This document shows positions 7,417-52,848 of a DNA stretch of 64,000 bases, piece after piece. The notes beneath the pieces were generated by a model. The model was not told where the DNA came from. It did not search any database and saw only the letters and a list, made by a program, of their open reading frames with translations. Source of the stretch: a virus; the IMG/VR virus record IMGVR_UViG_3300047678_000169, positions 16,239-80,238 of that record; one strand, 5' to 3'. Numbering within the stretch: position 1 is the first letter of the stretch; the number at the start of each line of letters is the position of its first letter. Position numbers and translations under genes: made by a program.

Positions 7417-8226
7417 TTAATAGTGTAAAGGTGCTCCCCAATTACTCTGCATAACGATTCCGCTGAATACTTGGGCCAAATGCTCTTCTTTGTATCCGAG
7501 TCTCTTAAATTCTTCGTATTGAGGCTTGTAATGGAAGAATTTGAACATCGGTTCGATTGGGTGAATTGGAATTGCACCACTTACCAACAACCATTCTCCA
7601 TACCAAGAGAATTCAGATGGAACAGTCTTGATAAGGTCTTCAAACTTCAATCCATTTGGCTCAAGATAGTTTACTTCAAGAGATTTCCAAACGATACCAC
7701 TCCAAATGATAGGACCTGGTCCAAAATCATAGAATCGTCCTTTGCGGTCAAATACATCCATGACCTTTTGGCGACATTCCTTGAAACTTCCATACGGGTC
7801 GAATCCAAGAACCGAAGTTTTGTTACATGTCCAAGTGAACAAATCTTTTTGCTCATGCATCACTGTGTATGGAATATCACTGGTTCCTTCCACGATAAAA
7901 TCGCTGACGTAAAATGGTCGGATAAAATATGAGTCACTGTCAATCATGACGTAGTTGGCACACAGACCAAGCTTCCAAAAGCTGCTCTTGACAATCTGTT
8001 GGGTTGTCCATGATTCGGCTTGAGAGTGGTCGTAGATGGATTCATCTTCAACTAAAATGTAGCCAGTGGTTCCCAATGAATGCTTGAATATTTCTATATC
8101 TGCTTTTGGAACTGAAATGTAGAATGGAATATTATCGTTGTTGTATTTGAAGATAGAATCGAGCAACACTTTAGCTCTTGAAACGTCTCCACGATATGAC
8201 TTACAGTATAGAACAATATTTTTCAT
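7417..8226 (-). CDS. DUF6492-like glycosyltransferase
   Basis: The 269-residue protein begins NIVLYCKSYRGDVSRAKVL and contains YVMIDSDSYFIRPF at about residues 91-104, where DSDS is a DXD-type metal site. The layout matches DUF6492 proteins found in polysaccharide clusters. A charged C-terminus follows (FFHYKPQYEEFKRLGY). It is tightly coupled to the FkbM methyltransferase gene by a 4-base overlap. Confidence 0.75.
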   Translation of the reverse strand: MKNIVLYCKSYRGDVSRAKVLLDSIFKYNNDNIPFYISVPKADIEIFKHSLGTTGYILVEDESIYDHSQAESWTTQQIVKSSFWKLGLCANYVMIDSDSYFIRPFYVSDFIVEGTSDIPYTVMHEQKDLFTWTCNKTSVLGFDPYGSFKECRQKVMDVFDRKGRFYDFGPGPIIWSGIVWKSLEVNYLEPNGLKFEDLIKTVPSEFSWYGEWLLVSGAIPIHPIEPMFKFFHYKPQYEEFKRLGYKEEHLAQVFSGIVMQSNWGAPLHY

Positions 8227-8927
8227 GTGCGAGGGAGCCAGTAGGTGTGGGTAAAATTGGTATCTTCTTGTAACATATTAAGATATTCGAGCTGAGTCAA
8301 TTCTTTTTCGTCCAGACTGTATATTTTATAGTTTATAGAATCGGGATATTCCGCCAGTGAATTAACTTGAAAACCGTAGCCCGGCAGAAATTTATTATGT
8401 CCCTCAATGAATATTATTGGTCGGTATGCTTCTATAACTTGTAAGGCTCCATTCAACACGGAAATTTCATACCCCTCCACATCAATTTTTATTACATCAG
8501 GACAAATGTTGTTCATTCGACAAAAATCATCGATTTTCATCAAAACAATTTTATCATTTCCTGGCAAAGACAATGCATGAAAATCATCCGAATTAAAATT
8601 AGCAATTCCGGTCTTGTCACCAACCAACATTTTTTGAGGATATATTTTCTTATCCTTATTAGCTAAATATAACTGTGTATAATGTGGCTGTTGAATGTGG
8701 CTTGGTTCAATGGCATAGCTTTCTCTCTTGTCATCTGCAAATAACAGACTGAATATTCCTAGTGCGGAGCCAACGTCAATTAAACACTTACAATTAGCCG
8801 TTTCTCTTAAAAACGCTTTCATTTCTTTGTTTTCTACAGAACCTTTGCTCAAACATCCATTGATGTTGTCAACATACGCATAACCGTATGGAACTTCAAA
8901 TGATTTTCCTTCAAACGAAGTTTTCAC
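8223..8927 (-). CDS. FkbM-family methyltransferase
   Basis: The 234-residue protein contains CLIDVGSALGIFSLLFA (SAM-binding motif I), then SYAIEPSHIQ and DVIKIDVEGYEISVLNG, the hallmark IDVEG segment of FkbM enzymes. These O-methylate sugars or small molecules using SAM. It overlaps glycosyltransferase genes on both sides, so a sugar methylation role is likely. Confidence 0.85.
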   Translation of the reverse strand: MKTSFEGKSFEVPYGYAYVDNINGCLSKGSVENKEMKAFLRETANCKCLIDVGSALGIFSLLFADDKRESYAIEPSHIQQPHYTQLYLANKDKKIYPQKMLVGDKTGIANFNSDDFHALSLPGNDKIVLMKIDDFCRMNNICPDVIKIDVEGYEISVLNGALQVIEAYRPIIFIEGHNKFLPGYGFQVNSLAEYPDSINYKIYSLDEKELTQLEYLNMLQEDTNFTHTYWLPRT

Positions 8928-9706
8928 AAACCCAATTCCTCTTTAAAATTATCAAATAACCAAGCAGTAACATCATTTCTGAATTTTACATCGCCCGTGA
9001 TATGAACCACGTTGGTTATGTCTTTGAAGGAAGTTTTGGGGTCTAATTTGCGACCCAATGCGTCAATCTGGCCGTCAAATAGAGTCCTTAACGTGTAATC
9101 CATGACATTGAACGAACGCGGTAGCAATGTGACAGGAAACTTGTTGTCTCTTACTGTAAAATTGAGAATGGTTTGGTCATCGGTAAAATCAGGAGATTTA
9201 TTAACTTCACACCACTTTTTATATTCTCTATGAAAAAATTCATATACCTCGTCCAAAGCCTTCTTATGTTTTTTACTGTATATGACCATACCACCATTGA
9301 TGTAATTTTCCCAAGAAACATCGGTTACTGTTGGAAACCAGTTTTCTCTAACCATTCTTATTGAACGGTTGAGTGCCGGTGCATATCCTCCGTCTGGACA
9401 ACCCCCGAAGTTGCCATCAACCATCTTGAAAAAATCTGGCGCCCAAGGCATAATGAATGTATCCCAATCAACCGCACATACTTGTTCAAATTCAATCTTG
9501 TTTTTCTCAAGTGCGTCTATAATCTTCATTCGCTGAAAGATTCCTGGAACCTTAGCTTGGTCTTCAAATTCCGTTTCAAGAAATATGAATTGATAACCAT
9601 GTTTTTCACACCACGCGTGCCACGAATAAGCGCATCTTTGAACAAATGGTTGATGTGGGGGCGTGGTTGGGCCACGCATTGCAGTCATACACACTACGTT
9701 TTTCAT
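8924..9706 (-). CDS. glycosyltransferase-like protein (GT8/GT34-type DXD)
   Basis: Start chosen at ATG 9706 because AAGGAG lies 8 bases upstream; an ATG at 9748 is possible but lacks this. The protein reads VCMTAMRGPTTPPHQPFVQ and then VCAVDWDTFIMPWAPDFF, where DWD acts as the DXD metal site after a Rossmann-like half. NGGMVIYSKKHK and DDQTILNF segments further resemble galactosyl/xylosyltransferase-type enzymes. It overlaps the FkbM gene downstream. Confidence 0.7.
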   Translation of the reverse strand: MKNVVCMTAMRGPTTPPHQPFVQRCAYSWHAWCEKHGYQFIFLETEFEDQAKVPGIFQRMKIIDALEKNKIEFEQVCAVDWDTFIMPWAPDFFKMVDGNFGGCPDGGYAPALNRSIRMVRENWFPTVTDVSWENYINGGMVIYSKKHKKALDEVYEFFHREYKKWCEVNKSPDFTDDQTILNFTVRDNKFPVTLLPRSFNVMDYTLRTLFDGQIDALGRKLDPKTSFKDITNVVHITGDVKFRNDVTAWLFDNFKEELGL

Positions 9707-10347
9707 ATTGGCATCTCCTTGAAAGTTCTTATCCAAGCCCATCTCCACAACTGTGCAATACTTTTATTATGTTTATCTTCTTCTGTCAAAGTTCTTCCCT
9801 TAGAGAATGTATTTCCATTCATCCTCTGTGATTGTAATTTTTTATGTTCTTCCGTCCAAGTTTTACCAAGAGAATATTTGTTACCTATAGCGCTTTTACT
9901 AAGCTTTTGTTTGTGTTCATCGGAAAGTTTTTTTCCAAGAGTAGCGGTGTTTCCCATTTTTGCTATTGATAATTTCTTCCTATATTCATCAGATTTCATC
10001 ATTGTCTGGAATTTTTCACTGTTCTTCATTCCATTAGATATTTTCTTCAATGTCTCTTTACAGACATTTGATGGGCTGTCCCCAGCTCCATAACAATTAT
10101 ATCCATTATGAACCGAATCTTTTTTATTTATCCAAAAATTTTCTCTACCTTTCAACCCAATTAAATTTGGTCGCTGTTCAAGTATATGAAAAACAAAATT
10201 TTCTATTCCATGCTTCATAATGGCTCTATAAAGTTTCCACTGTTTTGAAAATTTCAATTTCTTATAGTCTCCCCACCGTTTATGTATGTTCTTGCTCCTT
10301 CCAACATACCATTTATCAGGCTTGATTTTATTTTGTATTCCATACAC
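9703..10347 (-). CDS. GIY-YIG homing endonuclease with NUMOD3 repeats
   Basis: The GIY-YIG core is VYGIQNKIKPDKWYVGRSKN, followed by catalytic-domain residues and then at least three NUMOD3-like basic repeats (KLSIAKMGNTATLGKKLSD and similar). The open frame extends to ATG 10476, but its first 43 codons overlap out of frame with a separate small basic ORF (10358-10495). I therefore place the start at GTG 10347, just after that ORF stops. Free-standing homing endonucleases of this type are common in large phages. Confidence 0.8.
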   Translation of the reverse strand: MYGIQNKIKPDKWYVGRSKNIHKRWGDYKKLKFSKQWKLYRAIMKHGIENFVFHILEQRPNLIGLKGRENFWINKKDSVHNGYNCYGAGDSPSNVCKETLKKISNGMKNSEKFQTMMKSDEYRKKLSIAKMGNTATLGKKLSDEHKQKLSKSAIGNKYSLGKTWTEEHKKLQSQRMNGNTFSKGRTLTEEDKHNKSIAQLWRWAWIRTFKEMPI

Positions 10348-10357
10348 ACCAATGATT

Positions 10358-10495
10358 TCAGTCTTTAGATGCCCAATATCGTTGCATTTGAATTTTTTTA
10401 TATCGTTCTTTATTTCGAGCGTAGTGTTCTCTTTTCCACCGTTTTTCAGCCTCTTGTTTTTCTTTAGTAGATTCATATATTTTTTTTCGTCCCAT
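10358..10495 (-). CDS. small basic GRK-type peptide preceding an endonuclease (45 aa)
   Basis: ATG 10495 opens MGRKKIYESTKEKQEAEKRW and ends after RYWASKD. An almost identical layout (MGRK..., then a basic helix with RYW or YYRKNR) occurs at 30113-30265, also directly upstream of an endonuclease. A TATACTTATA element lies 13 bases upstream of the ATG. It is probably a short DNA-binding helical protein, or the detached N-terminal module of the endonuclease. No family is assigned. Confidence 0.5.
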   Translation of the reverse strand: MGRKKIYESTKEKQEAEKRWKREHYARNKERYKKIQMQRYWASKD

Positions 10496-10507
10496 TGTGG
10501 CGTCCTC

Positions 10508-10516
10508 TATAAGTAT
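10508..10516 (-). promoter_or_regulatory. ATACTTATA element upstream of small GRK gene
   Basis: Minus-strand ATACTTATA sits 13 bases before ATG 10495. One of several copies of the same element in front of minus-strand genes; -10-like (TATACT). Confidence 0.45.
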
Positions 10517-10541
10517 ATAACTCTAAATAAAAAACTCTAAA

Positions 10542-11429
10542 TTATTGAACTATTTCTAACATTTCTTTTACAACGGATTTGGTTGTAAGATTCTTTCTCG
10601 TGTGGTCTAACAATTGATTGACGGTATCTTTATACCAATTCATATCTATTTTTGCGCTAGCAACTACCTCGTTGGATTTCAATATCAATTCCTTTGGAAA
10701 TTTCATCATTGTTTCTGGAGGACATTTTTCCAAGTCCGGAAAATATGGTATGCAGCCGTTCATAAGGATTTCTAGGTGTCTAAGCGTGTCCCACCCCCCC
10801 TTTTTGAAAGTCAAGCCAAAATATGATTTCTGATAGTCTTCGAAGTAAGGTTTCTCCTCATCGAAAATGTATGTTTCCAACTTTCCAGGTTGAACAGTTC
10901 CCCAATCTTGGGATTTCTCTGGAACAGAAGACAATACTTTTTCTTCTGGTATACAGAAATTAATAGGATGTAATCTATCAGTTGGAGAAGTATTCAATTC
11001 ACGTTTGAAAAGGTGACCGCCAACATCAATAAGACTATAATCAATTCCCTGATGGTCTTCTCCGTCGATGAAAATAATCTTACCCTTGTTGTAGACTTTC
11101 AATACTTCTTGTATGTAATCTTGACAACGAGTGATTGAGCCATAAACAACGTAATCAAAATACTTGGAACGAATTTTATCGACCAAATCTATTCTTAGAG
11201 AGTCGTCTATGTCTTCAAACGTTCCATACAACGTAAATCCTCTTCCATAGCTTCTACCTTGGTCTGGAACTCTCTCAGTCCAATACTGCTCCTTGTCTTT
11301 TTTATACATATGCCAAATTTTATTAGCATCAATTACATCAGCTCCAAAAAGAGAGCGCAGACCGTGAAACACCATGTCCGATTGAAAATCTGGTAAATCT
11401 CCCTTAGCTATGAATAGAATTTTCATCAT
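10542..11429 (-). CDS. glycosyltransferase-like protein (GT-B/exostosin-like)
   Basis: The 295-residue protein begins MMKILFIAKGDLPDFQSDMV. Its second half carries YFGLTFKKGGWDTLRHLEIL and MNGCIPYFPDL, the pattern by which GT-B glycosyltransferases (CgeB and exostosin-like) contact the donor. The first half is divergent. It starts one base before the stop of the preceding gene, in the glycan operon. Confidence 0.55.
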   Translation of the reverse strand: MMKILFIAKGDLPDFQSDMVFHGLRSLFGADVIDANKIWHMYKKDKEQYWTERVPDQGRSYGRGFTLYGTFEDIDDSLRIDLVDKIRSKYFDYVVYGSITRCQDYIQEVLKVYNKGKIIFIDGEDHQGIDYSLIDVGGHLFKRELNTSPTDRLHPINFCIPEEKVLSSVPEKSQDWGTVQPGKLETYIFDEEKPYFEDYQKSYFGLTFKKGGWDTLRHLEILMNGCIPYFPDLEKCPPETMMKFPKELILKSNEVVASAKIDMNWYKDTVNQLLDHTRKNLTTKSVVKEMLEIVQ

Positions 11430-12154
11430 TATATTATGGCTCTACCATGTGGTTTTGTCAATGAGAATTTAATATCATCTCTCACGGCCAAAGAAATTTG
11501 TCTAGCTGAAAAATAAGTGGCCAAGATATTCTCAGCGTTTTCAAAGTGGTGTGAATTTAGGTTGGTCACAAACCTTGGAACATATAGAAAACATTCACAA
11601 GCAGCAGTCATAACGTCCGGCCTTCCCCAAAATATTTGGTCAATGATTCCCATGTGGCCGGTTCTTACGATTAGATTTCCAATTTCAATGTCTTTGATAC
11701 TTGGTTCGACAATATCTTGAACAAGTTCCGTGTCGAATCGGAGCCTAACTACAGCATCATAGGTTGTTCCAGTTTCTGCTGAATAAACAATTCTCAGATG
11801 GTCAGCATCATATATCTTTCGAAACATCGAATTGTTTTGAGACAGTTGAGAACCATTTCTGGTTACTATACCCTTCCATTTGGTTTCTAATCTATTTACA
11901 GAACCATCGGTAGCTCTCTCGATGTGGAAATTTCCATGAACTGGCTTGTAGGTGGATAAAAGCCTATCGGTTACGTCGCTAAATTCAAGAGGCGTTGTTG
12001 CATGATGAACGAATTGGACGCCCACGCCACTCTCCACCCAACTGGATAAGAATACATCGCAATCATACTTATCCAACAAAAATTGTTTCAATGCTGGATA
12101 GGTTAATTTGTCCCCATCACGTAAATGACCAGATATACAGACAGCTATTTTCAT
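11429..12154 (-). CDS. ISGHLR-type putative glycosyltransferase
   Basis: The 241-residue protein begins KIAVCISGHLRDGDKLTYP and has a YDAVVRLRFDTELVQDI segment mid-protein. Both are typical of polysaccharide-cluster proteins annotated as glycosyltransferase-like with an SG.R start. IFWGRPDVMTAACE follows. It overlaps its neighbours by one to four bases. The activity is inferred only from family resemblance and context. Confidence 0.6.
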   Translation of the reverse strand: MKIAVCISGHLRDGDKLTYPALKQFLLDKYDCDVFLSSWVESGVGVQFVHHATTPLEFSDVTDRLLSTYKPVHGNFHIERATDGSVNRLETKWKGIVTRNGSQLSQNNSMFRKIYDADHLRIVYSAETGTTYDAVVRLRFDTELVQDIVEPSIKDIEIGNLIVRTGHMGIIDQIFWGRPDVMTAACECFLYVPRFVTNLNSHHFENAENILATYFSARQISLAVRDDIKFSLTKPHGRAII

Positions 12155-12648
12155 TGTAAATCTTTCTTGAGTTGTTCAACGTTTTTAGAGCATATTCCAT
12201 ATGCTTTCTTCATTTCTTCTCTAGACCACCCATTCTCCTCAGGCATTACTAATACACTTCTTGGTAAAGCAAATTTATAAGGATTGTTAACATGTGTCCA
12301 AACATAAGCTCGGCTGGTGATGGTATAGTCATCCTCTTGATGCCAAAAATAATGCATAGGATTGAATGTAGCCGTCAACCATCTTGGACACGATGAAAGG
12401 ACGCTCAAAGCATCAATGTTCTTACAATGGAGCCACAACCCATCCTTGAATATGAAATCACTTGGAACTTCATATTCAGGTTTGTCATGTCCTAAGAACC
12501 ACTTACCATCGATATATCGAATATCAACCTCGACATCATATCCGAGCATCAAAGCAAAGTTGACCCTTTCTGGATGATTTTCTAATCCAGAATTTGGCCC
12601 GGCTATCAATGCTCTGTGTGCGATTAATTTCAAGACTTGATTCCCCAT
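12151..12648 (-). CDS. GDPD/PI-PLC-like TIM-barrel protein, short
   Basis: LIAHRALIAGPNSGLENHPE at the start followed by GYDVEVDIRYIDGKWFLGHD matches the glycerophosphodiester phosphodiesterase pattern (HR, then E-x-D, then GHD). It has 165 residues, shorter than the usual ~250, so the second half of the barrel is reduced. It sits between the ISGHLR protein and the RuBisCO-like gene, with its first 19 bases inside the latter. A sugar-phosphate or phospholipid-type phosphodiester is a plausible substrate. Confidence 0.65.
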   Translation of the reverse strand: MGNQVLKLIAHRALIAGPNSGLENHPERVNFALMLGYDVEVDIRYIDGKWFLGHDKPEYEVPSDFIFKDGLWLHCKNIDALSVLSSCPRWLTATFNPMHYFWHQEDDYTITSRAYVWTHVNNPYKFALPRSVLVMPEENGWSREEMKKAYGICSKNVEQLKKDLQ

Positions 12649-13835
12649 TTGTTCACAGCAATACCATATTCCATTCCATATGCCTTATCGATAGATTGTC
12701 TGATGGCTCTTGCTCCGGCAACCGTTCCCATTGGGTGTCCGTGAATGGCTCCCCCAACGTTTGCCATATAATCTACTCCAAATCGTTTGTTGATACCTTC
12801 AATCAATCCGGCGTGCATACCACAGCTCAAAGCTGGGACTACGTTTCCATCACGAAGAACCTTTAAGGTCTTTTGCAAATCTTCTTCTGATTCGCTCATA
12901 TATCCACCCCACATTCCTGAATGGATTGTGTCAGCTCCCATCAAGGCAGCTAGCTGACAGATAATATCCCAAGCGATGCTGAAGCGGTGTGATTTGTCGG
13001 TGAATACTTTGTCGCCACTCTTTTGAAAGTGAAGATACAACGGGAGGTCCAATCTTCTAACTGAATTATATGCTCCAAGACCACACCAAACATTCAAGTG
13101 AATACCATTGCCACCAGCATCAGCAACAAATTTGGCTCTGTCCAAGATAGCGTGTGGGTCAGCATTGATGGCGGTGCAATAGACCACCTTGCGGCTTTGA
13201 TTGTTGAGCCAATTTGAAATCAATGGAACTCTTTCCTTTAAAGAACACACCGATGGGTTGGATAGAATTTCGTCTTCTTTGATAAAATCTACTCCACCAT
13301 CAACCAACTCCTTTACCATTTCCAATAGAATCTTTGGAGAAATTCCAGTTTTTGGTTTGATGATAGCTCCAAACAGAGGCTTGTCATATTGGCCTGTGTA
13401 GTTTCTCATTCCGGAGAAACCGTATTTTGGTCCTTTAAAATGCTTCTTGACGTTATCAGGAATATCTAAACCAATCAAACGACAGCCTTGAATTATGTCA
13501 ATATCCATTTGTCCTCCCATTAGTTGACACAATAGGTGAGAAATACCATCATCTTCCCAATCGGTGTTTGCTACTGGAAATCCAATTCTAATGTCTCCAT
13601 GTGTCTTCTTTCGTAGGTCATCTTCAGTAAATTCGGTTATAACAATACACGAATGATTTTCAAATAATTCATCTGTTTCGTGAATGCTACGCACGTTTGG
13701 ATTACCAACACTCTGACCAATGGCTAGGTTCCATGCTGCGTCTCTAAGATTTGAGTCGAGCGTAGAACGCAATTGATACGTGGCAATTACATAATCGTTC
13801 TGATTAACATCTGTCAGTGGTTTAAATAACTTCAT
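12630..13835 (-). CDS. RuBisCO-like protein (form IV-type, large-subunit fold)
   Basis: The 401-residue protein follows the RuBisCO large-subunit layout. FGAIIKPKTGIS has K160/K162 (equivalent to K175/K177). GGVDFIKEDEIL has K186, D188 and E189 (the carbamylated K201 and metal ligands D203/E204). H305 matches H327, S337 matches S379 and GG 361-362 matches G403/G404. In loop 6 (IHSGMWGGYMSES) Y312 replaces the catalytic K334, and Q271/K272 replace H294/R295, so CO2 fixation is unlikely. An enolase, isomerase or decarboxylase activity on a sugar or sugar phosphate, as in other RuBisCO-like proteins, fits better. Cupin, nucleotidyltransferase and SDR genes are adjacent, suggesting a nucleotide-sugar branch. 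Confidence 0.9.
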   Translation of the reverse strand: MKLFKPLTDVNQNDYVIATYQLRSTLDSNLRDAAWNLAIGQSVGNPNVRSIHETDELFENHSCIVITEFTEDDLRKKTHGDIRIGFPVANTDWEDDGISHLLCQLMGGQMDIDIIQGCRLIGLDIPDNVKKHFKGPKYGFSGMRNYTGQYDKPLFGAIIKPKTGISPKILLEMVKELVDGGVDFIKEDEILSNPSVCSLKERVPLISNWLNNQSRKVVYCTAINADPHAILDRAKFVADAGGNGIHLNVWCGLGAYNSVRRLDLPLYLHFQKSGDKVFTDKSHRFSIAWDIICQLAALMGADTIHSGMWGGYMSESEEDLQKTLKVLRDGNVVPALSCGMHAGLIEGINKRFGVDYMANVGGAIHGHPMGTVAGARAIRQSIDKAYGMEYGIAVNKWGIKS

Positions 13836-14145
13836 ATTTGTCGTTTGGTAGTGAGGGTGATTTGATGCACAAAACTTTACAGTCTTCGTGAAAAATTGGG
13901 TCGGCTACTTCACCAGCATCAATGGTGAATATGTCGCCTTTGGATAATAGCGTTCCACATATCGTCATACTTCCTTCTAAGAGGACGTTATGTTCAATAG
14001 CTACTTTGTGATAATGCTTGGGCCATTTTTCGTCCTTCTTATGGGTAAGAACACCAATTTCAACGTAGTCAGTCTTCCATATCGAAGGATTGAAATTTCC
14101 AACGAACCAACCACGATGCATATCACTTAATTTAAGAACTTTCAT
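13822..14145 (-). CDS. cupin-domain protein
   Basis: The 107-residue single-domain protein has KWPKHYHKVAIEHNVLLEGS followed by LLSKGDIFTIDAGE, the two halves of a small cupin barrel. The HYH and E residues could bind a metal. It overlaps the RuBisCO-like gene downstream by 14 bases and the nucleotidyltransferase upstream by 4. It may be an isomerase or epimerase, or a sensor, acting on the same sugar as its neighbours. Confidence 0.75.
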   Translation of the reverse strand: MKVLKLSDMHRGWFVGNFNPSIWKTDYVEIGVLTHKKDEKWPKHYHKVAIEHNVLLEGSMTICGTLLSKGDIFTIDAGEVADPIFHEDCKVLCIKSPSLPNDKYEVI

Positions 14146-14858
14146 TTTGAATTCTCAAGTTCTACAAACTTAGCTAAATCTTCGGGAGTTCCGACAGCGT
14201 GATGTTGTTCATTTGGGATGTGATATACACCAACGGAAACTCCTCTATTTATAAGATAGTTGTATGTTGGGCCAACGTAATACTCTCCATTTGGTGCGGT
14301 ATCTTTCAAACGAATCATTTCTTCGGCTGAAGACACAAAATCCCTTCCTTGTTTCCAATAATGAATTCCGTTGAGGGAGATGTTGCTAATAACCTTTTTC
14401 TCCTTTACCTCCACAACATATCCCGACCTATCCAACTTAGCATAACTGTTCTTTGGAGTTTCTGAAAAGTATGTGACGATTGTTCCTGAATTGTATCTAG
14501 CATTGTGTAGAAATAAATCAGAATTCCACCACATTACTTGGTCACAATTTGCCACTACTAACTCTTCATTGTTGTCGATTTTGTCCTTAAATAACAAAAC
14601 AGAAGACGCCGGGCCAGCGGTTACATAATCGATTTCAACAAACTCAGCATTTGGAAGTATTGAATGAACCACACTCTTGAGCTTGGAAGTGTATGCGTCC
14701 TTTCTGACAACGAAATGATACTTGCCAGGCAGATTCAATGACTTGATTGCCTTAACAATCATTGGTTCTCCATTAATGTCAATTAGTGGCTTTGGGATAG
14801 AATATCCTGCGTCAGCGAAACGTGAGCCGATTCCGGCCATTGGTATTACGATGTTCAT
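14142..14858 (-). CDS. sugar-1-phos­phate nucleotidyltransferase-like protein (NTP_transferase family)
   Basis: Start at ATG 14858 gives a 4-base overlap with the upstream gene. NIVIPMAGIGSRFADAGYS is the glycine-rich nucleotide-binding start, followed by IPKPLIDINGEPMI (the signature KP lysine). LVVANCDQVMWW supplies the metal-binding aspartate. With 238 residues it is close to RmlA/LicC-type enzymes, which activate a sugar or choline phosphate with NTP. It probably works with the RuBisCO-like and cupin proteins. Confidence 0.85.
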   Translation of the reverse strand: MNIVIPMAGIGSRFADAGYSIPKPLIDINGEPMIVKAIKSLNLPGKYHFVVRKDAYTSKLKSVVHSILPNAEFVEIDYVTAGPASSVLLFKDKIDNNEELVVANCDQVMWWNSDLFLHNARYNSGTIVTYFSETPKNSYAKLDRSGYVVEVKEKKVISNISLNGIHYWKQGRDFVSSAEEMIRLKDTAPNGEYYVGPTYNYLINRGVSVGVYHIPNEQHHAVGTPEDLAKFVELENSK

Positions 14859-15556
14859 ACTTGCTTTGGTGGGTATTTGTGCTTCACTTGATTCCAATAG
14901 TTAATCCAAGATGCTGCTGGTGGGTGGAGTTTGTGATAGAATAATTCATCATCTGGTAAATTGTTGTAGTCCATATACCATCCGTAGTGATGTGCCTGAT
15001 ACAAACCACCAGTTCTGATGGAATTGGTGGAATAGGCTCCGTGAAAATTTGGGCGATTGAGGGCGAATGTCGTGTCGATAGTGGCACGATAAACATCTGG
15101 CTTCAGTGGTTCTTTCCAAAAAGTTGATTCATGAACGAGGACTTGTTCTTTGAGGGGATAGTGGTCTGGCAAATCATCAAGCTTCAATCCAAAACCAACC
15201 TTGTCAGGATTGAATTCTTGCATGATGTTGTAGAAATGCTCTAAGAAATTCTCAGGACAGTCTTTTGCTGGAATTACATCATTGTCGGTTAAAACATTAT
15301 AACTTCCCGTAAACATGGCTCCAAGATAGGTTCTTTCAAACACCAAAGGTCCAGATTCTCCATGTTCAAATCGATGAACGGTGAACATCTTACCATCATA
15401 CGCCTTTAAAAAATCAAGAAGAGGTTGATAGGTAGAACCACAGTCAGCTATATGGAGATTCTTATACCCTCTACTTGTCAATGCTTCCAATTGTTGAACC
15501 ATACAGTTCAATCGATTGTGACAGACAATGATAATGGGAATTTCTTTGAAGTTCAT
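14855..15556 (-). CDS. GT-A-like glycosyltransferase
   Basis: Start at ATG 15556 (ATGA overlap). It begins FKEIPIIIVCHNRLNCMVQQ, continues LHIADCGSTYQPLLDFL, and has SYNVLTDNDVIPAKDCPENF with DND in the DXD position. These are the key features of GT-A enzymes. It has 233 residues and no membrane segment. It lies within the tightly overlapping glycan operon. Confidence 0.75.
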   Translation of the reverse strand: MNFKEIPIIIVCHNRLNCMVQQLEALTSRGYKNLHIADCGSTYQPLLDFLKAYDGKMFTVHRFEHGESGPLVFERTYLGAMFTGSYNVLTDNDVIPAKDCPENFLEHFYNIMQEFNPDKVGFGLKLDDLPDHYPLKEQVLVHESTFWKEPLKPDVYRATIDTTFALNRPNFHGAYSTNSIRTGGLYQAHHYGWYMDYNNLPDDELFYHKLHPPAASWINYWNQVKHKYPPKQV

Positions 15557-16362
15557 GTAAGAATATCGAAGTGTAATCCATTTTCTTTCTCCCATTCCTT
15601 TGTGGTGATATTCAAATCAACAGGAGAAAAATGGCTTACACCATGTTTGACATAAGGATATAAACCAAAACGGGAAGAAAGCCAAGGAAAAACTACTTCT
15701 CCATACCATCTATTTTTGATGCGTGTCTTAAAATAAGAATCTGGAGCTTTTTTTAGAAACCAAGACACAACGCTACCTTTGATAACATAAAAAGTCTCAA
15801 CGTAAGACCAATTAACATGAGTATATTTTAGTTCGTCAAAAGGTATGTTCTGAACGATTGGCATTTCTCCGTGGTCGAACTCTAAATGGTCAAGAGTCTT
15901 CCATTGAGTATGTCCGTCAGCCGATTGGCCAACCCCATAATGTCCATAGACACCGATGGAAGGATTTCTATCCAACAGTGCTTCAATTTCTGTTCTTTTG
16001 GATAGAAATTCATTGAGATAGTATTCGAATCTATCCTGACGGTCATTTACTCCACCTTTGGTATGGGCGAACCACACGTTCTTATATGGTTCCTTTGTCC
16101 TCATTCTCATTGCTTTTAAGGCAGCTTGAGTTCCAGATGCGTCTGACTCACAATATAATTCCCTCGGCACCACTGATACCACAAGATTTTGGTGTTTGGA
16201 GCTCAATATTTTGTTATAGACTTCATTGCAAGTGTCTGGATTGATTCCTACGAATACATCAGCATCGGCGAAAGTGGTTTCCAATACCTCTAACCACCTA
16301 TCAATCATCCAAGCTTTGGAAGAGTTGAAAATAGAAACGGAAAATACGACAGCAGATTTCAT
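15553..16362 (-). CDS. polysaccharide-cluster protein, putative glycosyltransferase (HTKGG type)
   Basis: The 269-residue protein carries NVWFAHTKGGVNDRQDR at about residues 97-113. The HTKG motif is seen in rhamnan-synthesis F-like and related transferases. The C-terminal YPWLSSRFGLYPY-like region is aromatic. It overlaps the SDR gene by 4 bases. Function is inferred from the motif and neighbourhood. Confidence 0.55.
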   Translation of the reverse strand: MKSAVVFSVSIFNSSKAWMIDRWLEVLETTFADADVFVGINPDTCNEVYNKILSSKHQNLVVSVVPRELYCESDASGTQAALKAMRMRTKEPYKNVWFAHTKGGVNDRQDRFEYYLNEFLSKRTEIEALLDRNPSIGVYGHYGVGQSADGHTQWKTLDHLEFDHGEMPIVQNIPFDELKYTHVNWSYVETFYVIKGSVVSWFLKKAPDSYFKTRIKNRWYGEVVFPWLSSRFGLYPYVKHGVSHFSPVDLNITTKEWEKENGLHFDILT

Positions 16363-17282
16363 TGAATGTGGTGTTTTAAGTCTTCAACCGAAGCAGCTAT
16401 TCCAGCATCCATTTCAAATATTGGGCTCCATCCGGTATCTATCCACAATTTGTAATTGCTGATGTGGGTGCTTTTAACGTCCCAATCTGGAGGTTTACAA
16501 TATTCGATTGTAATTTCCGTATTTGTTTCTTTGGATACTTGCCTAATAATATCGTTTATAGAGTAAGACCTTCCGCTACATACATTGTAGGTTCCGACCA
16601 AATCATCTTCAAGAATAGCCTCAATGGCTCGAATAAAATCTAAGTAATAGATAAAATCTTTGGTCGCCCTGCCATCTCCCCAGATTCTTAAAGTTTCATG
16701 TTTAATGGCTGCTTGTATAACCATTGGTATGATGCCCTGTATTTGATTTCTACCATTTGGAATGTATTTTCCATATGGATTGGTAATTCTCAAATTCAAA
16801 TGGTCCGGAGCTTGAGACACTATTCTTTCAGCAAATAGTTTTGCTTGAGCATACCAACCAATCGGATTCATATATGTCAGAGATTCATCTTTCTGGACAT
16901 ATAGTTCAGACCCATCGGGAAAAATTGTTCTAGCAATTGCTTCGCCATAAACGGCACCGGTGGAAAAGAATACAAGTTTGGTTCCACTTTCGGTGGCGTG
17001 TTGAGTTAACAATCTGACATTGTGATAATCCTCTGAGGTGTTCCAAGGACTTCTTTTCATTTCGGCTATCGATGGAACGGTGGTCCATGATAAATGAAAC
17101 ACATAATCAGATTTTTTTAGATAATCGGAGTTGAACAATAGTTTAACATCTTCATAACCTTTGCCGGGCGTCCTTGAAAAAAGAGTGACTTCATATTTCT
17201 GTGGGTCGAGATATGATTTGATTAGTGTTGCTAGGCGGCCACGGCCACCTGTAACAAATACTCTCTTCTTTCTTTCAGCCAT
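16359..17282 (-). CDS. NAD-dependent epimerase/dehydratase (extended SDR)
   Basis: KRVFVTGGRGRLATLIKSYL is the NAD(P)-binding TGxxGxxG start. NPIGWYAQAKLFAERIV holds the catalytic YxxxK (GWYAQAK). Later segments (LRITNPYGKYI, RATKDFIYYLDFIRAI) match UDP-sugar epimerase/dehydratases. It converts one nucleotide-sugar to another. The start is taken at ATG 17282; an in-frame ATG at 17297 would overlap the upstream stop. Confidence 0.9.
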   Translation of the reverse strand: MAERKKRVFVTGGRGRLATLIKSYLDPQKYEVTLFSRTPGKGYEDVKLLFNSDYLKKSDYVFHLSWTTVPSIAEMKRSPWNTSEDYHNVRLLTQHATESGTKLVFFSTGAVYGEAIARTIFPDGSELYVQKDESLTYMNPIGWYAQAKLFAERIVSQAPDHLNLRITNPYGKYIPNGRNQIQGIIPMVIQAAIKHETLRIWGDGRATKDFIYYLDFIRAIEAILEDDLVGTYNVCSGRSYSINDIIRQVSKETNTEITIEYCKPPDWDVKSTHISNYKLWIDTGWSPIFEMDAGIAASVEDLKHHIQ

Positions 17283-17283
17283 G

Positions 17284-17886
17284 TTAGTATTTAACAATCT
17301 TTACCAATTTGTCGTTGTTGAAGAATTCTACGCTCTTTATGTTTTCAGATACAAATTTATTCTCTTCGTAAGATAGATGTGGGCTAGCAAATGAATTGGT
17401 TGTTTCCCAATTTCTCAACAAGAAGTCGGTTCTCTCAGCAGCTGGATACAAGGGACAGGTGTGAAGGTCTTCGATGAAATAAATTCCTCCAGACTTCAAG
17501 GCCTTCAATAGAACAAAGAGGCTGACCTGTTGGTGTGGCATTTGGTGTGCTCCATCATCAACGATGAAATCAAGAGGTTCCATATCAGGAATCATACTAT
17601 TCAAGTGCTCTCTATTGGTTTGGTCTAGAATATAGACCTTTTCACAAATACTCTTGTCAAAGAATGAAGAACAATCATTAATATCCATTCCCCAGAGCTT
17701 CATTTCTGGATTATATTCTTTCCACATTCTCAAAGAATCTCCATGCCAAATCCCAATTTCAAGAAGTTTGACTGGGCCTTCACTTGGGACATATTTCTCA
17801 TACGTCAATGTATAGGAATGTTTTTCAAACCATTCCGTTCCTTTGTCTGCGTGGTGCTTGTTAGCAATTTCTGTTAAATTTCTCAT
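17284..17886 (-). CDS. class I SAM-dependent methyltransferase
   Basis: The 200-residue protein has VKLLEIGIWHGDSLRMW (motif I) and LDFIVDDGAHQMPHQQ, a pattern common in sugar O-methyltransferases of the TylF/MycF group, where the DD pair binds metal. GGIYFIEDLHTC follows. It probably methylates a hydroxyl on a glycan or nucleotide-sugar. It is coupled to the FkbM gene upstream. Confidence 0.8.
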   Translation of the reverse strand: MRNLTEIANKHHADKGTEWFEKHSYTLTYEKYVPSEGPVKLLEIGIWHGDSLRMWKEYNPEMKLWGMDINDCSSFFDKSICEKVYILDQTNREHLNSMIPDMEPLDFIVDDGAHQMPHQQVSLFVLLKALKSGGIYFIEDLHTCPLYPAAERTDFLLRNWETTNSFASPHLSYEENKFVSENIKSVEFFNNDKLVKIVKY

Positions 17887-18590
17887 GTTAGTAGTATTGT
17901 GTAGTAGTCTTGAGTTTTTCTCATATAGTCGTCAGTCACTTCTGAGCCTGTGGATGGACCAGAAACAATGAGTCCTCTTAAATAATGTGACCTTAATTCA
18001 ATCAAGTGTTCGATGTTTTCTTGAAAGTTTGGCATCATTGGTGGATGGATGGATAATAGAGTTGGAGGAATCTCATTCCTCAAGAATATAGATTTAGCTA
18101 CAGCATATTCCCCACCCTCAATATCAATCTTTACAAAGTTAATATTACCAGCTTCTTCAATTATAGAACTGACATAATCATCTAAGGTCATACACTCCGT
18201 TTCAAATGATAGCTCAGGCCTGAAATTTCCAACTCTTGTTACACTTTCTCCAAGTCTATTGTCGGAGCCCAACGTCATCTTTCCTTTGTAATCAGATAGA
18301 GCAAATTGATTCACTATGATGTTGGTGAATCCATTTAATGCTATGTTCTTGAACAGTTCTTCTTGAGCAACTGGGTCTGGTTCAAAGCAGTGAACTTTCT
18401 TGGCTAGTTGGGAGCCGTATAAGACGGTTGGACCTATCCACGCCCCAATGTCCAGATAACTTCTGTCTTTTACCAAGTGTTCATCAAAAATCTTATAAAT
18501 TTCCGATTCCCATCCGGAGTTTCCCCAAAATGGTCCGTTCGGAGTTCCTTCTGTAACATTAAATGTGAGATTGTTTCTTTTTACGTTCAT
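17883..18590 (-). CDS. FkbM-family methyltransferase (second copy)
   Basis: Start at ATG 18590 gives an ATGA overlap. RSYLDIGAWIGPTVLYGSQL is motif I and INFVKIDIEGGEYAVAKSI is the FkbM IDIEGGE segment. It is 235 residues long. It is not a close duplicate of the FkbM protein at 8223-8927, so the two probably modify different positions. Confidence 0.85.
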   Translation of the reverse strand: MNVKRNNLTFNVTEGTPNGPFWGNSGWESEIYKIFDEHLVKDRSYLDIGAWIGPTVLYGSQLAKKVHCFEPDPVAQEELFKNIALNGFTNIIVNQFALSDYKGKMTLGSDNRLGESVTRVGNFRPELSFETECMTLDDYVSSIIEEAGNINFVKIDIEGGEYAVAKSIFLRNEIPPTLLSIHPPMMPNFQENIEHLIELRSHYLRGLIVSGPSTGSEVTDDYMRKTQDYYTILLT

Positions 18591-19282
18591 AGGCCCATAT
18601 TTTCTTTTTGTGACCAATTCTTCAAATAGAATTCGTTTTGTTTTGTTTGTCTTTCGATGGTCTTATCGTGTATCAGAGAGAAATTAACATCAATTGGCAA
18701 TTCCGCAACAACCTTGGCTCCGGAGATTCTTTCATGTAGCTTTCTCTCCCACTTAATATCAGATGTATTTCTATAGATTCTGCCCTGTTTGTCTCCTGAG
18801 TTCCAGTTGATAATTGGTAGACCAGGAAACTCTTCCAAGAACGATACATGCCACCCCCATCTTTTAGCATCGGCCTCGGTCAAACCTCTGACAATATTAA
18901 CTCTTGGAACCCTATACAACTCTACAGATGGATTCGATTCCAATATCTCATGTATGTTCTCAATCAAAAAATCAGAAGGATATTCGTCAGCGTCTATTTG
19001 AAATACCCAACGATTTTTACAGTTGAGGGTTCCGAAGTTTTTATGTGCTCCAAAATCCCCATCTAAGTTGTGCTTGATTACTCTTCCCAATTTGGAAGAT
19101 GTGCTGAACAATGGGTGGAAAGCCAGTATCTTCTTAGTCTCTTCATTTGTTGAATTATCATCAACAATGATGATTTCATCGTCGGTGTTAGCAACGGTGT
19201 GATATAGTTTTTCAAGAAGCCGACTCAATTCGTCGGCTTCGTTGTGAACCGTTATCAAGTAAGAGATACTTGACTTAGCCAT
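18587..19282 (-). CDS. glycosyltransferase family 2
   Basis: ISYLITVHNEADELSRLLEK followed by EIIIVDDNSTNEETKKIL is the GT2 start. NRWVFQIDADEYPSDFLIEN contains DADE, the metal-binding DXD. SFLIHDKTIERQTKQNEFYLKN-type C-terminal residues are seen in cyclopropane/LPS GT2 enzymes. It is the gene directly downstream of groEL, 3 bases away, so it is co-transcribed with the chaperonin genes. Confidence 0.9.
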   Translation of the reverse strand: MAKSSISYLITVHNEADELSRLLEKLYHTVANTDDEIIIVDDNSTNEETKKILAFHPLFSTSSKLGRVIKHNLDGDFGAHKNFGTLNCKNRWVFQIDADEYPSDFLIENIHEILESNPSVELYRVPRVNIVRGLTEADAKRWGWHVSFLEEFPGLPIINWNSGDKQGRIYRNTSDIKWERKLHERISGAKVVAELPIDVNFSLIHDKTIERQTKQNEFYLKNWSQKENMGL

Positions 19283-19285: not shown

Positions 19286-20902
19286 TTACATTCCTTCTTG
19301 TGGAATCTGCTGTTGAATTTGCTCGGCCTCATCTTCAATGTCAGCAATCATACATTCGGTGGTCAATAATAGACCAGCGATGGATGCAGCGTTTTGAAGA
19401 GCGGTGCGCGTGACCTTTGTTGGGTCAACAACTCCGGAAACAACCAAGTCTTGATAAACATCGGTTGCGACATTGTAACCGTAATTTCCCGTGTTCTTCA
19501 ACACTTCACTTACTACAACGTCTCCACTCTTTCCTGCATTTGAACACAGCATCTTGATTGGGTGTTCGATGGCTCTACGAACAATTTGAGCTCCAATTTG
19601 TTCATCGCCTTCTAACTTGAGAGCGTCAATAACCGAAGCACATCTCAATAGAGCAACTCCTCCACCCGGAACAATTCCCTCTTCAACTGCGGCACGTGTT
19701 GCGTGCAAGGCATCTTCAACACGGTCTTTCTTTTCTTTCATTTCGGATTCGGTGGCTGCGCCCGTGTGGACAACTGCAACTCCGCCAGTTAGTTTGGCAA
19801 GGCGTTCTTGAAGCTTCTCACGCTCGAAGTCAGAAGTCGATTTCTCAATTTCATTCTTAATGAGCTTAATACGAACTTCAATGGCAGCTGGTTTGCCCGT
19901 TCCGCCGATGATGGTGGTGCTATCCTTTGTTACAATAATCTTCTTAGCCTGACCCAAATCAGCAAAGGTTAATTTGTCAAGATTGAGCCCAAGCTCAGAG
20001 GTAATCAATTTTGCTCCAGTGATGGTCGCAATGTCCTCGAGGGTAGCACGGCGTCTATCACCAAATCCAGGTGCCTTAACAGCACATGAAACGAAAGCTC
20101 CACGAACTCTGTTTACAACCATAAAGGCGAGAGCATCACCCTCAACATCTTCAGCTATAACAAGGAGCTTCTTTCCCATCTTAGCAATTTCTGTAAAGAA
20201 TTTGGCCAATGGGGCTATGGTGGTGAGCTTCTTTTCGATAACCAGAACCAAAGCGTCATCAAGAACAGCTTGTTGGGTTTCTTGGTCTGCAAAATAAGCG
20301 GAAATGAATCCCTTATCGAACTGCATACCCTCAACGACCTCAAGAGTCGTATCCATTGAGCTAGCTTCTTCAACGGTGATTGTTCCATCCTTACCAACCT
20401 TATCCATGGCGTCGGCAATAATGTTACCAATTGAGGTATCCCAGTTGGCGGAGACGGTGGCGACCTGGCGAATCTCTTCGCTGCTGCTTACCTTTTTAGA
20501 GATTTTGGCTAATTCTGCTACAGCAGCTACTACAGCCTTGTCGATACCACGCTTCAAATACACCGGATTTGCGCCAGCGGCTACGGTCTTTAGACCTTCA
20601 CGATAGATTGCGGATGCAAGAACCGTTGCGGTGGTTGTTCCGTCTCCGGCCAAATCGTTGGTCTTGGAAGCAACTTCTTTTACCATTTGAGCACCCATGT
20701 TCTCAAACTTATCTTTGAGTTGAATAGACTTAGCAACCGTAACTCCGTCTTTGGTAATCAATGGAGAACCAAATCCACGTTCGATGGCGACATTGCGACC
20801 CTTGGGCCCCAATGTTACACTGACCGCATTTGATAGGGTTGTTACTCCAGCCAAGATTTTATTTCTGGCCTCTGCACTAAATAGGATTTCTTTTGATTTC
20901 AT
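19286..20902 (-). CDS. groEL: 60 kDa chaperonin GroEL
   Basis: The 538-residue protein has [33 protein letters not shown] (ATP site), [15 protein letters not shown] and [14 protein letters not shown], all classic GroEL signatures. The C-terminus ends QQQIPQEGM rather than in a GGM repeat tail. It forms the folding chamber for ATP-driven protein folding in the cytoplasm. It follows groES (20905-21198) with a 2-base gap, the normal groESL order. A phage copy would assist folding of virion or replication proteins. Confidence 0.98.
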
Positions 20903-37722: not shown

Positions 37723-38127
37723 TGGTGGACCTGCGGGGAGTTGAACCCCGGTGTTTCATAAATTGCTCATCAGACATATACAAGCGTTAACACGGTGGAT
37801 ATGATTGTGGTTAGTAGTGTGCTCCACAAAAATTAGAGTCAGTAGTTTCTTCGTTGTTACAGTCTCACTTTCTCACAACGAACATATCAGCAGAGGTTGA
37901 CGTATTGACCCACTTATCTGCGTGGTGGAATACGGACTGCTCAGTTTATTAAGCAGCGACAGCCATAGCGGCTCCAACGTTCTTCGCCTTGCGGAGAAGT
38001 GTTAGAACATTTAGCTTAGCAAGATTTCTCTTAGCATTTAGTTTTTGTAATCAGGATTATGCAGGATGTTTACCACCTGCGCTTGCGTTCCGAGCTCAAC
38101 CCATAAAGTCGAATCCTGGACAGGCCC
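37723..38127 (-). ncRNA. ssrA: tmRNA (transfer-messenger RNA)
   Basis: The 5' end reads GGGCCTGTCCAGGATTCGAC, close to the conserved tmRNA start. The 3' end has T-arm CGGGG-TTCAACT-CCCCG and then CAGGTCC-A-CCA, which pairs with 5' GGGCCTG as the acceptor stem. At nt 93 (38035) a reading frame opens with GCT and ends at TAATAA (37946-37951), encoding a 28-residue tag that ends MAVAA, in line with protease-degron tags. The tag is longer than the 10-residue E. coli type. It would rescue stalled ribosomes during infection. Confidence 0.92.
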
Positions 38128-49104: not shown

Positions 49105-49180
49105 TGGTAGGCCTGGAGGGAATCGAACCCCCATCCAAACGTTCGAAGCGTCTGTTTCTAATCCGTTGAATTACAAGCCC
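49105..49180 (-). tRNA. tRNA-Arg(TCG)
   Basis: Anticodon arm CAGACG-CTTCGAA-CGTTTG, T-arm GGGGG-TTCGATT-CCCTC, acceptor GGGCTTG/CAGGCCT, CCA encoded. Confidence 0.85.
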
Positions 49181-49299
49181 ACTAAAAGTTTTCTCAAATA
49201 ATACATAACATACAGAAGATGGCAGTTGCTTAGGCTGATTTAGTTCTGCTACCATGTATCTTTTCAGGGAGTCCCTCAATCCATAAGCGGTGGATAATA

Positions 49300-49400
49300 T
49301 AGCTCCAAGAGGCGCGGTCTAGTTGGCCGTGTTTGAGAAAAGGGCCCTCGCCCACGGGGACGGAGGGGGCCTAGCCGCGGGTGTGTATGTCCGAGTCTAG
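49300..49400. other. GC-rich island in an AT-rich genome
   Basis: Runs such as GGGCCCTCGCCCACGGGGAC and GGAGGGGGCCTAGCCGCGGG are strikingly GC-rich compared with neighbouring DNA. No gene or RNA is recognised. It directly follows tRNA-Val(TAC) at 49409 in transcription order. Confidence 0.5.
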
Positions 49401-49408
49401 GGGATGAT

Positions 49409-49484
49409 TGGTGGGAAACCTCGGGCTCGAACCGAGAACCTTCGCTGTGTAAAAGCGCTGCGCTAACCATTGCGCCAGTCTCCC
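49409..49484 (-). tRNA. tRNA-Val(TAC)
   Basis: Anticodon arm CGCT-TTTACAC-AGCG, T-arm CTCGG-TTCGAGC-CCGAG, acceptor GGGAGAC/GTTTCCC, CCA encoded. Confidence 0.88.
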
Positions 49485-49492
49485 AAATGCCG

Positions 49493-49933
49493 TTAGGCCA
49501 AAATTTTTCTTAGTTTCATACATTCAATACCATGATAGGATTTTTTCTCACCTGTGGGTTTAAAACCTTCCTTAACAAGATTAGCGTATGAATAAACGTT
49601 CTTCAATCCAACCCAAACATTGACCCTCGAAGCGTTCTTGGCTTCTTTCTTTACATGTTCAATTCTCTGTTTGATTAAAAGTCTTTGTAGTCCATTTCCT
49701 CTGTGCTTTTTCGTGACCACACAGAGTCTCAGTCCCCAAAATCCGTGATAACAGGTGATTCCACCAAATCCGACGATTTCATCATTGAACTTAGCAACAA
49801 ATATACGATGTAAAGACTTTTTAATCTCAGCCGCAGATAAGTGAGTGTATTCACTTTCGTTTGCTATTTTCTCAAGTGTAGGAAGAACTTCTTCCCATTT
49901 GCTTTTTTCTAATTTTTCAATGATGTATTTCAT
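49493..49933 (-). CDS. GNAT-family acetyltransferase
   Basis: VTKKHRGNGLQRLLIKQRIE is the acetyl-CoA binding motif A (R-x-x-G-x-G/A). IVGFGGITCYHGFWGLRLCV forms the preceding strands and NVYSYANLVKEGFKPTG the C-terminal motif B. It is 146 residues. Substrate unknown; it could modify a host or phage protein. It lies between two tRNA genes. Confidence 0.85.
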   Translation of the reverse strand: MKYIIEKLEKSKWEEVLPTLEKIANESEYTHLSAAEIKKSLHRIFVAKFNDEIVGFGGITCYHGFWGLRLCVVTKKHRGNGLQRLLIKQRIEHVKKEAKNASRVNVWVGLKNVYSYANLVKEGFKPTGEKKSYHGIECMKLRKILA

Positions 49934-49938
49934 AAATT

Positions 49939-50021
49939 GGTAGCGAGGGTGGGAGTCGAACCCACATTCCTTTCGGAGACTGATTTTGAGTCAGTTGTGT
50001 CTGCCATTCCACCACCCCGCC
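49939..50021 (-). tRNA. tRNA-Leu(CAA)
   Basis: Class II. Anticodon arm ACTGA-CTCAAAA-TCAGT, T-arm GTGGG-TTCGACT-CCCAC, CCA encoded. Confidence 0.88.
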
Positions 50022-50025
50022 ATAA

Positions 50026-50208
50026 TTACTGTTTAAATTCCTTATTCCAGCGACTCAACATTTCAGTTGTAGCATCAGAAGCTTTCTTCTGAGTCCATTT
50101 GTCAACTTCTTTGTCGATTAGTTCTTTAGGATACATTCTACCACGCTGCTTCGCAGTATAGTGTTGGAATTTTCCTTTGACTACTGGTAATTTGTTTTCT
50201 TCTGTCAT
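50026..50208 (-). CDS. small hypothetical protein (60 aa)
   Basis: Charged, helical: MTEENKLPVVKGKFQHYTAK, with a basic middle (KQRGRMYPKELIDKEVDKW). No family recognised. It lies between tRNA-Leu genes. Confidence 0.5.
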   Translation of the reverse strand: MTEENKLPVVKGKFQHYTAKQRGRMYPKELIDKEVDKWTQKKASDATTEMLSRWNKEFKQ

Positions 50209-50292
50209 AAATTGGTGCTGTCTTTCTCGCCGTCACCGGTCTGAGGAACGGCGTTTCAATGCCTGCTCAGTGTCGTATTCGGTTTACGCTAG

Positions 50293-50378
50293 TGGTAGCC
50301 AAGGTGGGATTCGGACCCACAAGGACATCGCATTCTAAGTGCGGCGGTTCTTCCAATTTCCCTTTCGTCCACTTGGCC
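50293..50378 (-). tRNA. tRNA-Leu(TAG)
   Basis: Class II. Anticodon arm CCGCA-CTTAGAA-TGCGA, T-arm GTGGG-TCCGAAT-CCCAC (T-loop starts TCC), acceptor GGCCAAG/CTTGGCT, CCA encoded. Confidence 0.85.
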
Positions 50379-50386
50379 ATAAATTC

Positions 50387-50797
50387 TTAAAAAAGAGGCT
50401 TCTTTTTTTCTTCTTTGCCTTTTTTGATTTGTTCTTTTGTTGGTTTTGGAGCTTCTTTAGTTTTCCAAGCTAAATGTTGGTAAGCATATGCCAAATTGCA
50501 AATTGGGCAATCTTCCGAATCTTTTTCTCCATGTCTTGCTGGCTTTAAATCTTTTGTAACAGAGCCAAATCCAGCATTGCAACAATTGTTTCCACAACAA
50601 GGACAACGAACAAACATACATTGGCACAAACCACAATAGTCCCATGTGAACATGAAAACTCTTTTTTCTTTCCAGTCTTTGTGCCATCCATTTTTCTTAG
50701 AGCCAATTTCTTGCTCTCCACCTTTCATATAGGTTGGGTCAAAAATTTGCTTAAATGGTTTATATTTAAATTTTCGCATATAGCACATTGACTTCAA
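50387..50797 (-). CDS. Cys-rich zinc-binding-like protein (136 aa)
   Basis: CGLCQCMFVRCPCCGNNCC and a later CPICNLAYAYQH provide many cysteines, consistent with zinc binding. The N-terminus is basic and the C-terminus Lys/Pro-rich. It may bind nucleic acid. Not assigned to a family. Confidence 0.6.
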   Translation of the reverse strand: MKSMCYMRKFKYKPFKQIFDPTYMKGGEQEIGSKKNGWHKDWKEKRVFMFTWDYCGLCQCMFVRCPCCGNNCCNAGFGSVTKDLKPARHGEKDSEDCPICNLAYAYQHLAWKTKEAPKPTKEQIKKGKEEKKKPLF

Positions 50798-50837
50798 TAC
50801 TGATTTTAGTCAAGATATAAAATAGACCCACTTTTTA

Positions 50838-50924
50838 TTAATGTTGGTGGGAATCATTATTATCATTACCGTCTGTTACGACAAGTAGTGTTAACAATAA
50901 CAACACGATTGTCGCTTGTATCAT
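50838..50924 (-). CDS. short hydrophobic peptide (28 aa; tentative)
   Basis: ATG 50924 encodes MIQATIVLLLLTLLVVTDGN followed by an Asp/Asn/His-rich end, like a membrane or signal peptide. No clear ribosome-binding site. Could be chance. Confidence 0.3.
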   Translation of the reverse strand: MIQATIVLLLLTLLVVTDGNDNNDSHQH

Positions 50925-51057
50925 AAAATTTTGAATCAGGCCCGTCTCAGTTGTGAACGCTCAAGAAGAGCGAACCTTTAACCTGTGGTCAGACTGAATC
51001 GCGTTTTTCAGCCCAAATATACGAATCTACACGTAAGCTGGTTCGGTCTAATTCAAA

Positions 51058-51136
51058 TGGTGGGAAGTCAGCGAATCGAACGCTGTTATTTCGCTCTTCA
51101 GGCGAACGCTGAAATGACCACACTAGCTCACTTCCC
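51058..51136 (-). tRNA. tRNA-Phe(GAA)
   Basis: Anticodon arm TTCGC-CTGAAGA-GCGAA, T-arm CAGCG-TTCGATT-CGCTG, acceptor GGGAAGT/ACTTCCC, CCA encoded. Its 5' end overlaps the stop of the Mom-like gene. Confidence 0.88.
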
Positions 51137-51660: not shown

Positions 51661-51750
51661 AGAGTTTCTATCAACTTCCTTGAAAGAAACAGCCTGGGGT
51701 CTAAAAACTCATTAATCATGAGTATAAATATAACGAAATCGTATATAAAA

Positions 51751-51836
51751 TGGTAGCCGTGGTGGGATTCGAACCCACAGAGGATAAGACGTTTTAAGTG
51801 TCTCGGTTGTAGCCAATTTCCCTAATCCACACGGCC
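51751..51836 (-). tRNA. tRNA-Leu(TAA)
   Basis: Class II. Loop CTTAAAA between AGACA and CGTCT, T-arm GTGGG-TTCGAAT-CCCAC, acceptor GGCCGTG/CACGGCT, CCA encoded. Confidence 0.85.
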
Positions 51837-51901
51837 AAAAATTATATTCTTCTTTTCTTCCATCCAGTTTCGATAGAAAGGGTTTTTGAAACTATTTTAA
51901 G

Positions 51902-51987: not shown

Positions 51988-51992
51988 AAAAA

Positions 51993-52844: not shown

Positions 52845-52848
52845 AAAT

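Follow-up and report, generated by a model that had tools for sequence, protein, structure and literature searches.

A phage-borne gene cassette with a RuBisCO-like protein that may serve nucleotide-sugar biosynthesis

Four adjoining genes of a phage genome lead us, on balance, to propose that a new subfamily of RuBisCO-like proteins (RLPs), found mainly in phages, serves nucleotide-sugar biosynthesis and is interchangeable with ribose-5-phosphate isomerase B (RpiB) or DHBP synthase (RibB), the product being a nucleotide-activated, pentose-derived glycan building block, perhaps an undescribed one. We have high confidence that the four genes, coding for a GDPD-like protein, the RLP, a cupin and a nucleotidyltransferase (NTase), share one sugar-nucleotide cassette. 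The complete sequence of steps put forward below for this phage-borne pathway is about an even call, and within it the exact sugar, nucleotide and GDPD step are predicted with low confidence. The known roles of RLPs lie in methionine salvage or sugar-acid catabolism; glycan precursor synthesis, if true, would add a new function to the RLP fold, one met mostly in viruses. No description of the four-gene combination was found in the open-access literature.

The cassette, its phage genome and its conservation

The window, i.e., the whole stretch of 64,000 nucleotides analyzed, is part of an 80 kb IMG/VR virus record and carries the cassette on the minus strand, with genes for the GDPD-like protein at 12151-12648 (165 aa), the RLP at 12630-13835 (401 aa), the cupin at 13822-14145 (107 aa) and the NTase at 14142-14858 (238 aa counted from ATG). 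The four open reading frames of the first-pass annotation are real, and their end-to-end overlaps of 4-19 bases were confirmed from the coordinates (19, 14 and 4 bases for GDPD-like/RLP, RLP/cupin and cupin/NTase, respectively). The overlaps had been taken as a sign of one unit; they are indeed present, but overlaps of 4-43 bases run unbroken from 11429 to 19282 in the surrounding phage glycan operon, so that overlap alone does not set the four genes apart, and it is conservation that defines the unit. This operon (7417-19282, minus strand) codes for glycosyltransferases, FkbM-type and other methyltransferases and an NAD-dependent epimerase; a GIY-YIG/NUMOD3 homing-endonuclease-like gene (9703-10476) lies within it. 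The bacterial capsule setting envisaged earlier had to be abandoned: the window, coding for 33 tRNAs, a tmRNA, GroEL, a Dda-like helicase and phage nucleases, is a phage genome, and bacterial or archaeal loci are only a minority of those found. The 33 tRNA genes, for many amino acids, are spread over about 14 kb (49105-63459), which points to a large phage that supplements translation with genes of its own. The phage-encoded tmRNA (37723-38127) has an unusually long predicted tag (AKRNLAKLNVLTLLRKAKNVGAAMAVAA), and a full GroEL gene (19286-20902) adjoins the glycan operon, GroEL being close to the RLP cassette also in loci L006 and L078.

At least 195 viral and about 23 cellular loci carry the RLP. 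A protein search of IMG/VR gave 240 relatives, of which 80 with 58-94% identity were kept; a genome scan gave 24 loci, one of them (Desulfosporosinus, 26%) holding a distant RuBisCO relative. A T4-type major capsid protein is encoded by seven of the 28 records examined, every one of the seven being viral, which marks at least this set as tailed phages. Among 50,697 cultured phage records (INPHARED) the RLP was not found; these cultured phages do hold NTase, cupin and GDPD relatives, which exposed the RpiB and RibB fusions described below. When 2,043 neighboring ORFs were clustered without supervision, RLP (104 loci), NTase (95), GDPD (79) and cupin (61) stood at the top, followed by a family present at 39 loci; this co-occurrence is far beyond chance. 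For 38 viral loci, dereplicated at 90% RLP identity and with more than 2.5 kb of flank on either side, the NTase lies within 1.5 kb of the RLP in 35, GDPD in 28 and the cupin in 27, and NTase-cupin-RLP-GDPD is the commonest gene order. The suggestion of one recurring unit is thereby borne out well beyond this genome, and the order is largely kept, although the position of GDPD is variable and the cupin or GDPD is missing from some RLP loci.

The four proteins

The RLP belongs to PF00016 (Pfam, E 2e-39) and scores below the cut-off of every NCBIfam RuBisCO/RLP equivalog, among them MtnW (125.8 against 513.6 bits for TIGR03332; 162.6 against 409 for NF007095), the OiaX decarboxylase (150.4 against 700 bits) and RuBisCO form III (179.5 against 497). 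It appears to represent an unnamed, previously undescribed RuBisCO-like subfamily, the Rhodospirillum rubrum (R. rubrum) Deep-Ykr type being compared by description only; the subfamily signatures are IGQS[VI]GNP, IKEDEI, QKSG and GM.GGY. The AF2 model (pLDDT 93) matches type III RuBisCO (5.7e-33) and MtnW (about 1e-31) in Foldseek. In an alignment of 29 diverse members, K160, K162, K186, D188 and E189 are invariant and, by alignment to solved relatives, equal K175, K177, K201, D203 and E204 of RuBisCO (spinach numbering, here and below), whereas RuBisCO K334, N123 and H294 are replaced by Y312, G108 and Q271. Because the Mg/carbamyl-lysine enolization site is kept while Lys334 and Asn123 are lost, the RLP should not fix CO2. 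Enolization without CO2 addition is the chemistry expected from the established RuBisCO mechanism, and with moderate confidence the protein is predicted to act as an isomerase.

The NTase is of the MobA-like/sugar-phosphate type: it passes the gathering cut-off of PF12804 (MobA-like; 29.8 against 27 bits), matches phrog_3980 (7.7e-56), has 4evw as its nearest solved structure (E 9e-24) and shows an invariant catalytic motif (GxGxRF...KP, NxDQ and D226). In the Synechococcus phages DSL-LC03 and B23 (loci L108 and L109), a related NTase has an HAD phosphatase domain as its N-terminal fusion partner; GDPD is near and the RLP absent. Neither the cupin nor the GDPD-like protein has a Pfam match at E 0.001. 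The cupin matches phrog_24762 (1.6e-31) and, weakly, profiles of cupin structures, and its relatives score as cupin in Pfam below threshold; H44, H46 and E51 (HxH...E) are invariant in the alignment, the third His is absent and D82 is also conserved. In the GDPD-like protein, the motif HR...EN...E.D...GHD...H.K, invariant or nearly so, corresponds to the glycerophosphodiesterase catalytic residues; hhalign against a true GDPD (PF03009 member) gave a local match of 95.8% over 48 columns, and the small predicted fold is confident, its best relevant Foldseek match being 2o55 (probability 0.82; E 0.046, not significant). A phosphodiester would be a plausible substrate.

The NTase clade follows the presence of the cupin, with 7 label changes versus a shuffled mean of 23.0 (five partner labels), and one class of RLP loci without cupin carries a different NTase clade. 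A few rows were scored cupin-free despite a cupin in tblastn (e.g., L073 and L099), and the count therefore understates how tight the pattern is. This split of the NTase clades by cupin presence suggests that the NTase receives a different compound where the cupin acts.

Partner exchange, the proposed pathway and its competitors

Relatives of the NTase turned up in cultured cyanophages in which the enzyme is fused to RpiB (phage Bellamy; PF02502, 3.9e-32) or to RibB (phage S-SKS1; PF00926, 5.4e-65). For the NTase-RpiB type, 32 cyanophage-type loci were counted (30 in the IMG/VR fusion scan), the fusion being followed by the same cupin in 31 and by GDPD in 28. The RLP occurs in none of these 32 loci and RpiB in none of the 195 RLP-bearing viral loci, so that RpiB takes the place of the RLP in an otherwise equal cassette. 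The RpiB domain of the fusions retains the Cys needed for catalysis as well as the DH pair and the RHN and GGRH motifs of RpiB. Scanning IMG/VR for NTase-RibB gave 11 loci, one of them without the RibB part; the cupin and GDPD were not found near RibB-type fusions. Bellamy gp208, which adjoins the cupin, was considered as a substitute for the RLP and rejected, since on visual inspection it looks like the window's gtA-type glycosyltransferase-like protein rather than an isomerase. RpiB interconverts ribose-5-phosphate (R5P) and ribulose-5-phosphate (Ru5P), and RibB acts on Ru5P; as both enzymes enolize Ru5P, this compound is the best guess for the substrate of the RLP.

We propose that the RLP would act as a non-carboxylating, Mg2+/carbamyl-lysine-dependent enolizing isomerase on a ketose phosphate of the host, in all likelihood Ru5P, and that the cupin would catalyze a metal-dependent second step, as isomerase or epimerase, altering the compound that the NTase receives. 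The latter would join the pentose-type phosphate so formed to a nucleotide such as CMP or UMP, the neighboring glycosyltransferases would transfer the residue to glycans of the phage or of the host surface, and the short GDPD-like enzyme would handle a phosphodiester made from that residue. Activation of the RLP/cupin product by the NTase had already been suggested from the sequence, and we likewise consider it the most likely prediction. This reading of the pathway is put forward because the four families top the clustering, gene order and overlaps are kept, RpiB and RibB replace the RLP, the RLP residues are those of an enolizing enzyme and the NTase clade is linked to the cupin; the R. rubrum RLP-cupin precedent and the cellular homologs in surface-polysaccharide-like regions (SAR11 epimerases, Legionella LicD) are in line with it. 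Speaking against Ru5P, the RpiB isomerase fold is versatile, and other sugars could be the substrate; moreover, since hosts already make R5P, the product of the cassette may be less ordinary than ribose. A sugar-phosphate mutase was not recognized among the cassette genes; the NTase would therefore need either a substrate whose phosphate is non-anomeric or help from the host.

A possible, if clearly less probable, variant keeps the same cassette but assigns the RLP a change of the carbon skeleton, such as a rearrangement, loss of C1 or carbonyl migration, leading to a C4, branched or deoxy sugar phosphate. OiaX-family RLPs are decarboxylases, and OiaX is a sub-threshold match of the phage RLP. 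The presence of RibB among the swapped partners would fit such chemistry as well, as would the R. rubrum RLP, which shifts a carbonyl along the chain before its cupin, a sulfurylase, removes the thiol (PMC4958253). In the most similar cassettes, however, it is a plain aldose-ketose isomerase, RpiB, that replaces the RLP beside the same cupin and GDPD, and the RibB version comes without both of these, which speaks against the variant. It seems improbable that the four genes share no pathway and, as popular genes of glycan islands, are passed on jointly when modules are exchanged. Such islands in phages are modular, and the shifting position of GDPD and the loci lacking cupin or GDPD would suit this view, but it is at odds with the frequency gap between the four families and all other neighbors, with partner replacement, NTase fusion and the NTase clade tied to the cupin, and with the reappearance of the same grouping in distant bacterial phyla. 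We also think it quite improbable that the genes form a variant of the methylthioadenosine-isoprenoid shunt, in which RLP and cupin, paired as in R. rubrum, would yield 1-deoxyxylulose-5-phosphate for an IspD-like NTase: the faint similarity of the NTase to IspD amounts to a score of 15.1 against a cut-off of 181.3, no methylthioadenosine-salvage genes were noticed near the RLP, and neither the glycan genes around it nor its replacement by RpiB or RibB fits. Finally, a role as auxiliary RuBisCO gene in carbon fixation, the label that viral 'rbcL' genes have been given, is scarcely credible despite the PF00016 membership, the overall fold and the published viral rbcL reports, because Lys334, Asn123 and His294 are replaced across the whole subfamily, a small subunit and phosphoribulokinase were not recognized beside the RLP, and the form III score falls far short of its cut-off.

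The cassette bears on claims about viral rbcL, the published genes being set beside our RLP by description, not by sequence. Published work counts them among the auxiliary genes for carbon fixation (PMC8506154, PMC12607003), and one study reported CO2-fixation assays (PMC12615777); the landfill study noted such calls also in random IMG/VR viruses. The pattern DFIKEDEI occurs in at least 119 viral stretches of IMG/VR, and all 115 newly examined ones code for the RLP described here, whereas DFxKDDEN, which is typical of RuBisCO forms I and III (the form II pattern DFIKNDEP lying outside the viral scan), occurs in seven, none coding for a detectable relative. The probable role of the RLP in the cassette suggests that many 'RuBisCO genes' of such uncultured bacterial viruses have a purpose other than carbon fixation.

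Cellular copies and known systems

Cellular copies of the RLP are sporadic and come from SAR11, Legionella, Azospirillum, Elusimicrobia, Patescibacteria, Bacteroidota and DPANN archaea. Viral and cellular sequences are intermingled in the tree, and a viral origin is possible for some of the short contigs assigned to cell bins. The chromosomal copies of SAR11 sit in surface-polysaccharide-type regions beside epimerases; SAR11 as the main bearer was rejected, with a good homolog in only 2 of 297 genomes of one SAR11 family. In SAR11 loci L091 and L093-L097, two different NTases flank the RLP, one per side, with GDPD upstream and the cupin absent. Azospirillum (L100) has the order GDPD-RLP-cupin-NTase followed by CysD/CysN-like sulfate activation genes, and a nanoarchaeal RLP locus holds a full-length GDPD (PF03009). 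The Legionella loci (L101-L103) contain an RLP-NTase pair without cupin or GDPD, adjoined by a LicD-family gene in L101 (Pfam) and apparently also in L102. LicD as a transferase partner in the viruses was rejected, being absent in the 41 viral records searched.

Among known systems, MtnW (2,3-diketo-5-methylthiopentyl-1-phosphate enolase) has the RLP fold and the Mg/Lys enolization site in common with the phage RLP, which is only about 25% identical to it and lies far under the MtnW equivalog cut-off. In R. rubrum, the RLP Rru_A1998 is an MTRu-1P isomerase that works with the cupin Rru_A2000 (PMC4958253), and this teaming of a cupin with an RLP that isomerizes a pentulose phosphate without carboxylating it resembles what is predicted for the phage pair. 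The resemblance is one of description, not of sequence; the R. rubrum substrate bears a methylthio group and, unlike the phage cassette, the R. rubrum pair comes without NTase, GDPD or glycan context. CDP-alcohol cytidylyltransferase systems that feed LicD-type phosphotransferases are similar to the Legionella RLP-NTase pairs beside a LicD gene, but differ from the viral cassettes, for which the 41 records yielded no LicD. The S-SKS1 fusion, with DHBP synthase instead of the RLP and no cupin or GDPD found nearby, ties a homologous NTase to an enzyme of Ru5P. The Bellamy-type cassette, although it contains RpiB instead of the RLP and an NTase from a different clade, combines homologous NTase, cupin and GDPD in an equally tight arrangement.
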